Below are positions 9,780 to 17,423 of a stretch of 23,249 nucleotides of DNA, one piece after another. The position numbers and the translations under genes were made by a program. The notes beneath the pieces were generated by a model that was given only the letters and a program-made list of their open reading frames with translations, had not been told where the DNA came from and ran no database searches. Source of the stretch: a virus; the IMG/VR virus record IMGVR_UViG_3300021357_000012, positions 1 through 23,249 of that record, one strand, 5' to 3'. Each line of letters begins with the position of its first letter. Position 1 is the stretch's first letter.

Positions 9780-10634
9780 ATGACAGCAGGACCTACTTTA
9801 TCCTCTGACCTTTTCGATCCAGACGTATGGGCCGACATGATTCAAGCCGACTTCAAGGGCAAGGCCCGAGTTGTCGGCTGGGCACAATCCGATAACACCC
9901 TGGTCGGTAAACCAGGCTCAACTATCCACTTCCCTAAGTGGAATACTCTCGGCGAGTTTGAGGACTTGACCGAAAATGTCGATATCGTCCCAGAGAAGCT
10001 GACGCAGTCCGACGGCACCGCCACGATTAAGGAAGTCGGCAAGGGCTTTAGCTTCACCGACACCGCAGACCTCGTCGGCCTTGGCGACATTGACTCCGAG
10101 GGCACCCGCCAAATGGGCACCCTCGCCGCGCGTAAGATCGACGCCGACCTTATCGTCGAGTCTGCAGCTGAAACCGAAGCATCTGGCACTACGCGAGAAC
10201 AAAAGCCGTACAAACTTGACGTTTCCGGCACCACGTCGGCTCTTTCTTGGAGTGTAATCGTTGACGCCATCGCCATGTTTGGCGACGAGTGGGAAGCCGA
10301 TACAAACACCGGCCTATTCATTCGCTCCGAACAAATGGCCCAAGTGATGAAGGACGATGAGTTCATCAAGGCTGATAAGGCTGGCTCCACTGTGGTTAAG
10401 ACCGGCGAAATCGGCATGATTGGTGGTATGCCGGTCGTTGTCACGAACCGTCTGCCTAAGAATGAATTTCGCATCATCCAGCGTGGCGCGCTAGGCGTTT
10501 TGTTTAAGCGCCGCCCGATCATCGAACGCGATCGCGACATTCTCGGCCGTAAGTGGGTCGTTACAGCCAACGTTCACTATGCGGTTAAGCGCCTAAATGA
10601 TAAGGGCATCGTCGTTGGAAAGTTGCAGGCCTAA
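9780..10634 (+). CDS. Major capsid protein (HK97 fold)
   Basis: This 284-residue protein is the main shell component. GAAAGGA precedes the ATG. The N-terminus (TLSSDLFDPDVWADMIQADFKGKARVVG), the segment PGSTIHFPKWNTLGEFEDL and the EKLTQSDGTATIKEVGKGFSFTD region are typical of N4gp56/SPP1-type coat proteins of the HK97 fold. The C-terminus has the usual GALGVLFKRRPIIERDRDIL followed by a strand before the final VVGKLQA. There is no N-terminal delta domain long enough for cleavage, consistent with the separate scaffold gene. Its place between scaffold and connector genes fits. Each quoted segment is in family-typical order, so confidence is high. Confidence 0.92.
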   Translation: MTAGPTLSSDLFDPDVWADMIQADFKGKARVVGWAQSDNTLVGKPGSTIHFPKWNTLGEFEDLTENVDIVPEKLTQSDGTATIKEVGKGFSFTDTADLVGLGDIDSEGTRQMGTLAARKIDADLIVESAAETEASGTTREQKPYKLDVSGTTSALSWSVIVDAIAMFGDEWEADTNTGLFIRSEQMAQVMKDDEFIKADKAGSTVVKTGEIGMIGGMPVVVTNRLPKNEFRIIQRGALGVLFKRRPIIERDRDILGRKWVVTANVHYAVKRLNDKGIVVGKLQA

Positions 10635-13024: not shown

Positions 13025-13414
13025 ATGGCAAAAAAGAATCTCACGCAATACCTGCTGAAGCCGCTCGAACTAGAGGCGGGAGACATAACCCTCGTGTCTC
13101 CCGTCCCTAGCGTCGAAAAAGGCAAGCAGCTGACTATCCTGACCGAACGCGGCCAACAGTTACTCGACGGCGACGAGTCCGCAGCCGACTACCAAATACA
13201 CGGCATTGAGACAGTCGAAGATATGGCCCGCTACATCTTCACCAAAGAAAGCGTGGACGCGGCGTTAAAGGCAGGCATTAGCCTTCCAGACCTCACCAAT
13301 TTCATCACTTACGCAATGGCATATTGGGTGATGGGCGAGGAAGCCGCAGACGCATATATGCAGGCTATCTCGGAGGCGAACGACCCAAAAGGCCAAAGCC
13401 CCCGCAAACCCTAG
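13025..13414 (+). CDS. Tail assembly chaperone, short product (G)
   Basis: This 129-residue product has AAGGAGG just upstream. Its N-terminal part (residues 1-60) is beta/loop-rich and its C-terminal part is helical (VEDMARYIFTKESVDAALKAG, then FITYAMAYWVMGEEAADAYM). This is the common shape of the upstream member of the chaperone pair located before the tape measure gene. It would hold the tape measure in an assembly-competent state with the longer product. The last codons contain the slippery heptamer CCCAAAA, and the frame stops at TAG 13412-13414. Confidence 0.85.
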   Translation: MAKKNLTQYLLKPLELEAGDITLVSPVPSVEKGKQLTILTERGQQLLDGDESAADYQIHGIETVEDMARYIFTKESVDAALKAGISLPDLTNFITYAMAYWVMGEEAADAYMQAISEANDPKGQSPRKP

Positions 13415-13695
13415 AGGAGTGGGCGCAATACGGCGTCGGCGAACCCGACGCGGACGGTATCTATCCCGACTACTGTATCCCCGCTGATCTACGGCCTAAA
13501 CCACCGCAGGAAGCGGGGATACGGTGGGCGGACCTCATAGACAACTGGGACACCGTAATATGCGACCTCGCCGCAATCTACGGCATTAGAGAATGGGAGT
13601 GCGGCGACATGCCGTGGCCGCGCTTCCGCTCCCTAGTCCTTGGGCTACTTTCACGCGAGGACAGCGTTCTCAGAGAGCAGTTAGTCAGTAACTAA
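13025..13695 (+). CDS. Tail assembly chaperone, -1 frameshift product (GT)
   Basis: The second reading frame (13390-13695) has no ribosome site or good start of its own and overlaps the first. A -1 slip at 13384-13390 joins them: after Pro-Lys the reading continues Arg-Pro-Lys-Pro-Pro-Gln-Thr-Leu to the TAA at 13693-13695. The fusion is about 223 residues. The C-terminal extension includes LEEWAQYG, the PADLRPKPPQEAG segment and the helical LIDNWDTVICDLAAIYG, typical of the T-part of GT chaperones. The ratio of short to fused product normally matters for tail length control. A -1 shift at this position is the rule in siphoviruses; here it is inferred from the heptamer and frames. Confidence 0.8.
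13384..13390 (+). promoter_or_regulatory. Slippery heptamer for -1 ribosomal frameshift
   Basis: The sequence C CCA AAA (zero-frame spacing) fits X-XXY-YYZ with X=C, Y=A. After a one-base slip the tRNAs can re-pair with CCC and AAA. It lies 22-28 bases before the stop of the short frame. A 7-bp stem (GCGTCGG 13433-13439, CCGACGC 13445-13451, 5-base loop) starts 43 bases downstream, rather far for a classical stimulator. Confidence 0.78.
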
Positions 13696-14087
13696 TACTT
13701 GATGTCGCTCTCTGGAAAGAGTTTAGAAACGGCGGCAAGCCTATTGTTGCTTGGGCATTTGTACTTAACCGCTGCTTCTAACGCTAAGCCAAGTTTTCTA
13801 GGTGTTATTCCGGGGTTATGTGACTGGAACATAGATAGCAGATCGTCTCTCACAGCGTTCGCGCTCACTTCGTCCTTGGCGTCATCGTACGCCGCGAGGA
13901 AGTCACAGGCGCGTGGAACTACTTCATCTGTTTTTTCTCGATTAAATGCAAGTTTCGCCTGCCAAGTGGAGTAAAAAATCTCTTCCTCAGAGTTAATCTG
14001 CCGAGGCTCACTACTAGGTGCAGGCGTACAGCCACTGAGACTCACAGCCAAAACGACCACGGCAAAGACCGATATCACTCGTTTCAT
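13692..14087 (-). CDS. Lipoprotein on the opposite strand (moron; possible superinfection exclusion)
   Basis: This 131-residue protein is read from the minus strand, against all its neighbours. A signal peptide (MKRVISVFAVVVLAVS) ends in the lipobox LSGC with Cys20, so it should be a membrane-anchored lipoprotein on the host surface. The mature part is Ser/Pro-rich, then helical, with two further Cys in RACDFL and KYKCPS that could form a disulfide. GGGAG lies 5' of its start on that strand. It fills the gap between the chaperones and the tape measure and overlaps the chaperone stop by four bases. Hand counts give about 48% G+C here against about 57% in the chaperone extension, a sign of separate origin. 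It is probably expressed in the lysogen. The exclusion role is inferred; I do not recognise a specific family. Confidence 0.84.
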   Translation of the reverse strand: MKRVISVFAVVVLAVSLSGCTPAPSSEPRQINSEEEIFYSTWQAKLAFNREKTDEVVPRACDFLAAYDDAKDEVSANAVRDDLLSMFQSHNPGITPRKLGLALEAAVKYKCPSNNRLAAVSKLFPESDIKY

Positions 14088-14117
14088 TTTCTTTTCTCCC
14101 TCGAAAGGCGGCTATCC

Positions 14118-17100
14118 ATGAAATTAGGCGAATTATTTGCCGTCATCTCTGTCGATGATAGCGCAGTCGACAAAGGCGTAGAAAGGGCGAAGCGGAAAAT
14201 ACGCGAGGTGGGAGACGAGTCCGAACGCATGAGTACGCGGACCAATCGGGCTTTCCGTGTTGCTGGGCACGGCGCGAGCGCGCTATTCAAAGGCGTGTCC
14301 ACTGGATTCGCGGTAGGCTCCGCCGCTACCGGGACTTTTATTGCTTCACTAGGCAAAGTGGGTCTGGGGTACAACAAACTCCAACAAAATTCTCGCGCGG
14401 CCCTGAAAACTATTCTTGGTGGGACAAAAGAAGCCAACGAGCAGATGGACAAGCTCGACGCTTTTGCGAAAACCTCCCCTTTTGCTAAGCAAGTTTTCAT
14501 CACGGCTCAACAACAATTACTAGGCTTCGGTGTCGAAGCGAAAAAGGTCTTGCCGATTCTTGACGCCATTCAAAACGCTGTTGCCGCGACGGGCGGAAGT
14601 TCTCAGCAGGTGGGCGAGTTGGCTTTTGTGCTGGCACAGATCCAGGCGGCGGGCAAAATCACCGGCCAAGACCTCATGCAGCTGGGCCAACGAGGTGTGA
14701 ACGCCGCTGAGCTCATCGGGGAATCGCTGGGCAAAACCGGAGCTGAAGTCAAGGGGCTCATTTCCAAGGGAAAAATCGACGCTACTGACGCCATCGACGC
14801 TATCACCTCTGGCATGACCAAGAAGTTCGGTGGAGCCACGAAGAGTATCAAAGAGCAGATGGACGGTGCTCTTGACCGTGTTGCTGGCGCGAAGCGCGAC
14901 ATCGGTGCGAACCTAGCAGAACCGTTTGTCTCCAAAAACGGTGGTGGCGCAGCGGTTCAATGGACTAACCAAGTAGCGGACGGCTTGCGCAAAGTCGAAA
15001 AACTCACCGGCACGGCCATGAAGCGCGTCGACGCGTCTAAAGGTGCTTTCAAGACCGTCTCAGACGGGCTGAACAGCGTTAACAAGTATCTGGACAAAAT
15101 CGACGCGAACAAGCTCATTGACCAGCTCGGGCAGTTCAAGAAATATACCCCGATAGTCACCGGCCTTGGCACGGCTTTCGGCATTCTTGGACTGCAAGGA
15201 GTGCCCGTTATTGGCGCACTGGCCGGTGGACTATCGCCGGTAGTTGTGGGACTGGGAGCACTGGCCGCAACATCTCCAAAAGTTCGCGAGTCTTTCAAAG
15301 GCGCAGCCGAATCAGCAGGTGAACTGGCTCCAAAACTAGGCGACCTAGCTGTCAAGGCGCTAGACCTTGCGACAAACGTGGTCGAGGAAGCCGCCCCCGG
15401 TGTAGGCGATTTGGCAGAAGCAGGAATAAAACTGCTCGATGCTGGAATACCTCTCGTATCCATGATGGCCGACGCGCTTAACACAGGAACACCCCTTATC
15501 GGTGTTATCGGCGACATTGCCGGGCTGGTGAAAGATATTCCGCAGCCGGTTATGGCAATGGGTCTTGCTTTTGCGGTGACTCAACGCGCGACTAATGGGC
15601 TTGGGCCGAAGTTGCAAAGCGCTGCTGAGTCTATTCTTCTCACGGGCATGTATGCCAAGGACTCCGCGACTAAAGTCGGGCTCATGGGTACCGCTATGGG
15701 AGTCGCCAAGGCGGGAATCAAAGGTGTTGGAACAGCACTTAAAACAGCGTTTATTTCTAACCCGATCGGCCTAGCCATCACTGCAATCACAACTGCTATC
15801 GCTTTCTTTATCTCAAAACAAGCGGAAGCAAAGCAATCGGTTGACGAGATGGCTGACACGTTGGACCGGCAGACGGGCGCCATTACTGCTAATACGCGAG
15901 CGCTCATAGCTAAGAAGTTAGAAGAAGACGGAATGCTGGAAACCGCGAAATCACTCGGCGTCGCCACCGAAGATGTCATCAGTGCCATCATGGGACAAAA
16001 AGAGGCTGTAGCCCGAGTTAATGAAACTTTGGAAAAGACCCGGCATACCACTAGCCTTTACTCGGCTGGCGTGGGCGGCTCCGCTGAAGAAGTATCAGTT
16101 CTTTCAGAAAAAGCTAACGAACTAAAAACGGCAATTGGTGAAAAAACTGAAACCCTTAATGACGCTATCGAAACAACCAAGCGCCAAACGGAGGCTACAG
16201 GAACGGACACCAACGCTCTCGAAGCAAATAGTGAAGCCATTGAGGAAAACCGTCGCATTCAGGAAGGGCGAACTAACGCTCTAATCGGAGCGATCAACGC
16301 GGCACGAGGTTTTCAGGACGCGCAGGAATCGCTGACTAAAATCATCGAGGACGGCGGGCGGGCTACTCTGGGAGCAAACGGGAGTTTGGATCTTTACTCG
16401 GAGGGCAATCGTCGTGTCCTAGAGCCGCTGACTCGAATGTCTAAAGCAATTCTTGATCAAGCAGCGGCAATGGACAAACAGGGCGAATCCCAAGCAACTA
16501 TATCTGCGAAGTGGGATGAAAACATCGGAGCTTTCCGAAAGGCGGCCGAACAAGCTGGCATCACCGGTAAAACGCTCGATGATCTCATGGCAAAACTCGG
16601 TCTAGTAAAAAAGTACGAGTCGGTCAATATCCAGCTTGGCGCAAATACTAAACCCGCTGAAAAGGATATCGACGACGCGATTAAAGTTGCATCGGGTAAA
16701 ACTGGCAAAATCAAGATCGACGCGAACAATAACCCGGCAATCAAGCAGTTACTTACCACGATGGGCAAAGTTGACGAATCTACGGGTATTGCAACCATTG
16801 ATGCCGAGAACGATAAGGCCTTGGCACGTCTCCTTGTAACCATGGGAGCAATTAACCGCGAGACTGGTGTCGTCACCATTGATGGCAACCCATACAACGC
16901 TAAGCAGAAGGTGCAAGAGGTAAAGAATTACGCCTCGTCACAAACTGCAGTTATGCGTCTTTACGTCGATACAAGCGGGGTGCAACAGGCCGTCATACGT
17001 GCAAAGCACAGCGTCTCGGGCATCAGTATGACTACGCAACTCGCTAACGGCGGGCTCGTGGAATACTACGCTCGCGGCGGTACGCGTAGTGAAAACCATG

Positions 17101-17423
17101 TCGCACAGATCGCTCCGGCTGGTACTTGGCGAGTCTGGGCAGAACCCGAGACAGGCGGCGAAGCGTATATCCCTCTGGCACCGTCTAAGCGGCGTCGCTC
17201 AATGGAGATTCTGCATGAGGTGGCAGACCGCTTCGGGATGATACCTGTCCCTAAGAGTGGAAAGCGCTTCGCAGACGGTGGGAGCAATTCTGCGTCGAGG
17301 TCTATTGACCGAGGGCCGCGACTGCCTATTCCGGTGATTATCCAAATCGACGACAAAACCGCTCTCGCCGCTCACATTAGAGGCATAGCCACAGAACAAG
17401 TGCTAGAGGGGATGATGGTCTAA
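14118..17423 (+). CDS. Tail tape measure protein (TP901-like)
   Basis: This 1101-residue protein sets tail length. GAAAGG precedes the ATG. The N-terminal coiled coil (AVDKGVERAKRKIREVGDES) leads to the conserved TP901-type region, with FVLAQIQAAGKITGQDLMQL and GQRGVNAAEL near residues 170-200. Hydrophobic segments at about 345-385 and near 550-565 could enter the host membrane. Residues 836-970 form five successive 27-residue repeats. The C-terminus has GGEAYIPLAPSKRRRS, a common ending of actinophage tape measures, followed by a Dit-proximal helix. It resides inside the tube and helps DNA entry. Length relates to tail length. Confidence 0.96.
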   Translation: MKLGELFAVISVDDSAVDKGVERAKRKIREVGDESERMSTRTNRAFRVAGHGASALFKGVSTGFAVGSAATGTFIASLGKVGLGYNKLQQNSRAALKTILGGTKEANEQMDKLDAFAKTSPFAKQVFITAQQQLLGFGVEAKKVLPILDAIQNAVAATGGSSQQVGELAFVLAQIQAAGKITGQDLMQLGQRGVNAAELIGESLGKTGAEVKGLISKGKIDATDAIDAITSGMTKKFGGATKSIKEQMDGALDRVAGAKRDIGANLAEPFVSKNGGGAAVQWTNQVADGLRKVEKLTGTAMKRVDASKGAFKTVSDGLNSVNKYLDKIDANKLIDQLGQFKKYTPIVTGLGTAFGILGLQGVPVIGALAGGLSPVVVGLGALAATSPKVRESFKGAAESAGELAPKLGDLAVKALDLATNVVEEAAPGVGDLAEAGIKLLDAGIPLVSMMADALNTGTPLIGVIGDIAGLVKDIPQPVMAMGLAFAVTQRATNGLGPKLQSAAESILLTGMYAKDSATKVGLMGTAMGVAKAGIKGVGTALKTAFISNPIGLAITAITTAIAFFISKQAEAKQSVDEMADTLDRQTGAITANTRALIAKKLEEDGMLETAKSLGVATEDVISAIMGQKEAVARVNETLEKTRHTTSLYSAGVGGSAEEVSVLSEKANELKTAIGEKTETLNDAIETTKRQTEATGTDTNALEANSEAIEENRRIQEGRTNALIGAINAARGFQDAQESLTKIIEDGGRATLGANGSLDLYSEGNRRVLEPLTRMSKAILDQAAAMDKQGESQATISAKWDENIGAFRKAAEQAGITGKTLDDLMAKLGLVKKYESVNIQLGANTKPAEKDIDDAIKVASGKTGKIKIDANNNPAIKQLLTTMGKVDESTGIATIDAENDKALARLLVTMGAINRETGVVTIDGNPYNAKQKVQEVKNYASSQTAVMRLYVDTSGVQQAVIRAKHSVSGISMTTQLANGGLVEYYARGGTRSENHVAQIAPAGTWRVWAEPETGGEAYIPLAPSKRRRSMEILHEVADRFGMIPVPKSGKRFADGGSNSASRSIDRGPRLPIPVIIQIDDKTALAAHIRGIATEQVLEGMMV
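16623..17027 (+). repeat. Five tandem 27-codon repeats in the tape measure gene
   Basis: Residues 836-862, 863-889, 890-916, 917-943 and 944-970 align without gaps at a period of exactly 27. Each starts with a short alternating strand (for example IKIDAN, ATIDAE, VTIDGN) followed by a helix ending in a polar turn and usually Thr. The second, third and fourth units are the clearest. The DNA has diverged, so the repeats are old. Confidence 0.7.

Follow-up and report, generated by a model that had tools for sequence, protein, structure and literature searches.

A candidate superinfection-exclusion lipoprotein from a recurrent antisense slot at the chaperone–tape measure junction of actinobacterial prophages

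What does a lone lipoprotein gene do when it is read against the late operon of a siphophage, between the genes for the tail assembly chaperone (TAC) and the tape measure protein (TMP)? The question is raised by a 23.2-kb viral contig (23,249 nt; the window, meaning the whole stretch of DNA that was analyzed), in which a canonical siphophage late operon is read from left to right and the sole minus-strand gene between the frameshifted chaperone and the TMP lies at 13692–14087 (131 codons, ATG start). We hypothesized, at a probability of roughly 0.45, that this gene may encode a lysogen-expressed, membrane-tethered moron product that excludes superinfecting siphophages at genome entry.

The ORF, its ribosome-binding site (RBS), its signal peptide and its lipobox could all be read directly on the minus strand. 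The RBS is GAGGGAG (14096–14102), and the signal peptide (14028–14087) comprises a positively charged n-region (MKR) followed by a hydrophobic h-region and the lipobox LSGC (residues 17–20; 14028–14039), bearing out the first-pass annotation, which had described a lipoprotein with a clear signal peptide. After processing, the predicted mature protein has 112 aa and a net charge of −3. The plus-strand flanks define the borders of the slot. On the left, the chaperone (13025–13414; DUF7426, Pfam PF24201, E 6.6e-9) is followed by its frameshift extension frame (13324–13695), which is homologous to extensions in the related loci L024, L086 and others; the two overlap in different frames around 13379–13425, as programmed frameshifting predicts. 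The TMP (14118–17423) lies on the right and is identified by Pfam TMP_3 (E 7.6e-20), by NCBIfam tape_meas_nterm and by matches to PHROG tape measures. Where the chaperone and lipoprotein genes converge, their stop codons overlap, as had been noted, by exactly 4 bp (CTAA, 13692–13695), and the lipoprotein start codon is 30 bp from that of the TMP; both the stop overlap and the start position match the slot geometry of other loci. The chaperone–TMP gap is 422 bp in the window, compared with closest relatives in which the chaperone frame ends 14–60 bp before the TMP. Among 1306 shadow antisense ORFs of matching size from related loci, only 8 were lipoprotein-like, indicating that the window ORF is more than a product of chance.

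Because the gene opposes the late operon, brings translation signals of its own, is not present in collinear relatives (L017, L024, L034, L086 and L087, the closest by TMP) and is of a kind that recurs in temperate phages, we read it as an antisense moron, as the first-pass annotation had done. Its composition adds little to this reading. The gene does have lower G+C than its flanks (48.5%, versus 56.7% for the chaperones, 54.7% for the first kilobase of the TMP and ~55% for the window), but the argument is a weak one because 6% of contig windows of the same size have G+C as low. The contig minimum, ~41% G+C, falls elsewhere, in a stretch with a small ORF at 1064–1306 that may be a foreign insert in the early region. 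An Rfam search gave no match, a sigma-70 scan of the minus strand of the slot found no consensus promoter, and a search on either side of the cassette for inverted or direct repeats, which would point to a mobile element, found no convincing ones.

We gathered loci with related TMPs from viral contigs and genomes, called their genes with a home-made codon-usage script and left out three doubtful weak antisense calls (L096, L112 and L168). The prophage nearest to the window lay in a genome of the Actinomycetaceae family. The TAC–TMP junction held a minus-strand gene in 28 of 76 loci, and each of the other late-operon junctions with any antisense gene had one in just 1–3 loci; in a larger set, an antisense gene was present at this junction in 38 of 108 loci, around a third (both proportions are given without correction for shared ancestry). 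The geometry was likewise recurrent. The exact 4-bp stop overlap occurred in 14 of 33 cargo genes against an expected 2.9%, antisense starts mostly lay 14–58 bp from the TMP start, and the same overlap and spacing were found across unrelated cargo families. These mutually unrelated families include a DUF4177-like group, PHROG 2320, proteins that combine a membrane helix with an RGYxL domain, a family of short proteins with a CELTQSM...DYC-type motif at the end, a homologous lipoprotein pair (L125 and L164), the lone lipoproteins of L145 and L158, and others. Across actinobacterial prophages, the TAC–TMP junction serves repeatedly as a slot for antisense cargo genes that are unrelated to one another.

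Independent GenBank records contain the same arrangement. A reverse gene lies between chaperone and TMP in the Gordonia phages Finkle (gp16), Apricot (gp16), GMA1 (Orf16) and Birdsong (gp16), and at the same junction in the Kita/Nymphadora/Yeezy/Bosnia/Powerball group (~60 records). By sequence, Finkle gp16, GMA1 Orf16, Birdsong gp16, and Kita gp16 with its relatives are lipoproteins, and Apricot gp16 carries a membrane helix at its C-terminus. Kita and Finkle carry an integrase and a repressor, indicating that they are temperate, and GMA1 resides in its host as a prophage; together, Kita, Bosnia, Finkle and GMA1 are temperate Gordonia phages with antisense slot lipoproteins. Slot cargo was absent from Yakult, Jace and CarolAnn, the last a phage for which lysogen RNA-seq exists, and from five Arthrobacter phages with related TMPs. 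The record of Birdsong gp16 (L240, 2512–2958) names a tail assembly chaperone, yet the product is an antisense lipoprotein, and the annotation is probably wrong. Reverse genes at the slot have evidently been seen by annotators already, and morons and exclusion proteins were known before; we found no description of the junction as an antisense cargo slot in the literature, an absence that is weak evidence given the open-access scope of the search.

Analysis of 36 curated cargo proteins revealed a pronounced membrane bias. A transmembrane (TM) helix was present in 24 and another 6 were lipoproteins, so 30 of the 36 (83%) were membrane-anchored, compared with 53 of 604 sense genes of 60–170 aa from those loci (~9%); among the 1306 shadow antisense ORFs the figure was 129 (Fisher p ~1e-23, uncorrected for phylogeny). 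In L157, which was assigned to PHROG 2320 through its similarity to L203, a TM helix anchors the domain; in the lipoproteins of L203 and Kita (gp16, 10161–10478) the anchor is a lipid. One domain with two types of anchor therefore points to membrane tethering as the property that is kept. Slot genes that have relatives are also under purifying selection: dN/dS was ~0.2 between Bosnia gp16 and Powerball gp16 and between L091 and L223, and ~0.4 for more distant pairs (the close pair L127/L134 was uninformative); these values come from other loci, not from the window gene.

Some cargo did not resemble exclusion genes. In bifidobacterial prophages the slot held a toxin–antitoxin pair, a common cytosolic family, and membrane proteins accompanied by either an XRE regulator or an alpha/beta hydrolase. 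The slot of L179 contains, 648–53 bp before the TMP, a complete antisense addiction module composed of an HI1420-type antidote and a Gp49/HigB-like toxin. The cytosolic family (~130–175 aa, RWWxSQREHM...LWIAEALG) is antisense in L175, L180, L181, L186, L192, L195 and L196, prophages of a second, Bifidobacterium-like TMP group; its L175 member had no Pfam or PADLOC match, and we consider the family a candidate for an anti-phage or regulatory role inside the cell.

The cargo of this second kind bears on the main rival to an exclusion role, general lysogenic cargo, according to which the slot is a permissive site for any moron and the window lipoprotein serves some other lysogenic conversion, such as a changed surface property, interaction with nutrients or with the host, or masking of a receptor. 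Addiction module, regulator, hydrolase and cytosolic family all speak for such a site, as does the change of cargo under a constant TMP. The membrane-anchored fraction of the sampled cargo is, however, above the expectation for neutral insertion, and the gene found at the same junction in phage HK97, gp15, is an exclusion gene. We therefore regard general cargo as a serious alternative, though a somewhat doubtful one. The membrane-biased hotspot and the HK97 precedent also lend support to exclusion, which the first-pass annotation had raised, as the likeliest kind of function.

The first-pass annotation had further proposed, as plausible, a matched pair of genes swapped as one unit; on such a reading the lipoprotein would recognize its own class of TMP. 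The genes are indeed adjacent, with starts 30 bp apart. The TMPs nearest to that of the window (L034, L086, L087 and L017) have no cargo beside them, and among Leucobacter TMPs with a similar N-terminal part (0.82–0.83), one is accompanied by a lipoprotein and two by none. In the bifidobacterial prophage pairs L192/L196, L187/L192 and L180/L190, chaperone DNA is 86–92% identical and TMP DNA 81–91% identical; homology ends at the chaperone stop or close to it and restarts at the TMP start, and the cargo between these breakpoints differs. Because the flanks stay homologous while the cargo changes, the cassette in these prophages is swapped on its own. Outside the bifidobacterial group, same-cargo loci did have somewhat closer TMP C-terminal parts (similarity 0.103 versus 0.051, permutation p 0.006, near-duplicates removed), an excess that is weak, is not separated from shared ancestry and may be explained by it. 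Since the closest TMPs lack the gene and TMPs 81–91% identical in DNA carry swapped cargo, a matched pair is unsupported here and largely refuted in the bifidobacterial prophages, and we consider it improbable for the window. A separate feature of the TMPs of L192, L187, L194 and L196 is a set of ~132-bp internal repeats at ~1700–2020; their copy number seems to vary among near-identical prophages, which would alter tail length.

An effect of the antisense transcript rather than of the protein is very improbable in our estimation. Opposed strands across the TAC–TMP boundary, and an antisense start no more than 30 bp from that of the TMP, would suit a transcript that silences leak-through chaperone and TMP transcription in the lysogen, but the slot genes keep their reading frames, signal peptides and lipoboxes, slot-gene dN/dS is 0.2–0.4, cargo sequences are unrelated and most relatives have no cargo at all. 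Equally improbable is a recently acquired or decaying gene with no function, since the missing homologues, lower G+C and weak codon fit of the window gene are set against an intact RBS, signal peptide, lipobox and cysteine pair and a geometry identical to that of constrained cargo elsewhere.

We searched for the identity of the lipoprotein by sequence and by predicted fold. Searches with the whole gene gave no significant homologue in phages, plasmids, viral contigs, 213 genomes of the Actinomycetaceae family or a small number of other genomes. A Pfam scan down to E 1 listed DUF732 (PF05305) alone, at E 0.012 and 16.4 bits, below the Pfam gathering cut-off of 22.4; this sub-threshold match covers a putative helical region at residues 60–113 (13749–13910, minus strand), including C61 and C111. 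An AlphaFold single-sequence model was all-helical and of low confidence (pLDDT 67.5). Of its 11 best neighbors in a BFVD fold search, 8 bore the DUF732 name, each at E > 0.4 and none significant alone, and a PDB fold search with the same low-confidence model gave no meaningful match. DUF732 proteins are small, secreted and actinobacterial, and the likeness would lie in the predicted helical character and the two cysteines within the matched stretch. Because the Pfam score is under the cut-off and no fold match is significant alone, we describe the protein, on these sequence features, as DUF732-like and do not class it as a DUF732 member. Nor do we claim common ancestry with the DUF732-looking slot lipoprotein of L145, for which direct comparison gave nothing significant.

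Returning to exclusion at genome entry, we propose the following scheme. The gene would be a moron of a temperate actinobacterial siphophage, occupying an antisense slot dedicated to such cargo between the chaperone and TMP genes, and its orientation against the late operon would make a promoter of its own usable while the prophage is silent. To judge from the motifs, the product is probably exported and lipid-anchored on the outer face of the cell membrane. There it may interfere with genome entry by superinfecting siphophages, as HK97 gp15 and the Ltp protein of phage TP-J34 do, its target being either the incoming TMP and tail complex or a membrane partner that the complex needs. By analogy with the related prophages, the cassette would be exchanged as a unit from the chaperone stop to the TMP start, largely independently of the TMP. 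Several observations count against an exclusion role: antisense promoters were not enriched inside the TMP 5′ end (29 cargo-bearing versus 79 other loci, a null result), some cargo is not exclusion-like, the PADLOC defence library gave no match, and DUF732 genes occur elsewhere in phage genomes, as in GordDuk1, where DUF732 sits outside the chaperone–TMP slot, unlike the window gene.

A broader proposal, which we advance tentatively and at less than even odds, is that the junction in actinobacterial temperate siphophages may be a dedicated antisense anti-phage slot through which unrelated membrane-tethered entry-blockers and addiction modules are rapidly swapped, so that position alone would predict exclusion genes, with HK97 gp15 as the Gram-negative counterpart. 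Because exclusion genes have no sequence in common, finding them is difficult. If the proposal is true, a fixed address, from chaperone stop to TMP start, would list dozens of unrelated candidate entry-blockers, and the slot would explain the recurring reverse genes at the junction in annotated actinobacteriophages. The candidates would come from prophages of Gordonia, Cellulomonas, Leucobacter, Actinomycetaceae and Bifidobacterium, and could be tested in standard systems such as Gordonia terrae 3612.

Comparison with known systems places the window gene among several partial counterparts. Among these are the Gordonia slot lipoproteins (gp16–17 of Kita, Bosnia, Yeezy, Powerball and Finkle, GMA1 Orf16 and Birdsong gp16), which occupy the same antisense chaperone–TMP site and, in most cases, have a 3′ end that overlaps the chaperone end and a start near the TMP start. 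They belong to families unrelated to the window protein (PHROG 2320 in Kita and Bosnia), and their GenBank annotation states no role. GTE6 Orf12, an Ltp-type protein (PMC4524720), was rejected as a slot Ltp, as it is on the sense strand with no annotated chaperone or TMP beside it. Ltp itself, from S. thermophilus phage TP-J34, is a lipoprotein that acts on the TMP of incoming phages (PMC3952083). The window protein is predicted to share its lipid anchoring, having the signal peptide and lipobox of Ltp-type lipoproteins, but PF07553 is matched by Ltp alone, and membership in the streptococcal Ltp family, which the first-pass annotation had brought to mind, is ruled out. Tab of Pseudomonas phage JBD26 is also a prophage moron targeting the tape measure (PMC10884400); its gene sits between those for the terminase, in contrast to a gene at the chaperone–TMP junction, and its effect comes after entry, at tail assembly. 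HK97 gp15, from an E. coli phage, shares that very junction, between a frameshifted chaperone and the TMP, and is a small predicted membrane protein. It differs in being on the sense strand with the late operon, in having a Gram-negative host and in not being a lipoprotein, and no local alignment with the window protein was found. As a superinfection-exclusion moron, HK97 gp15 is reported to block DNA injection, and its exclusion is escaped by hybrids with the tail tube and tape measure of another phage (PMC10883804).
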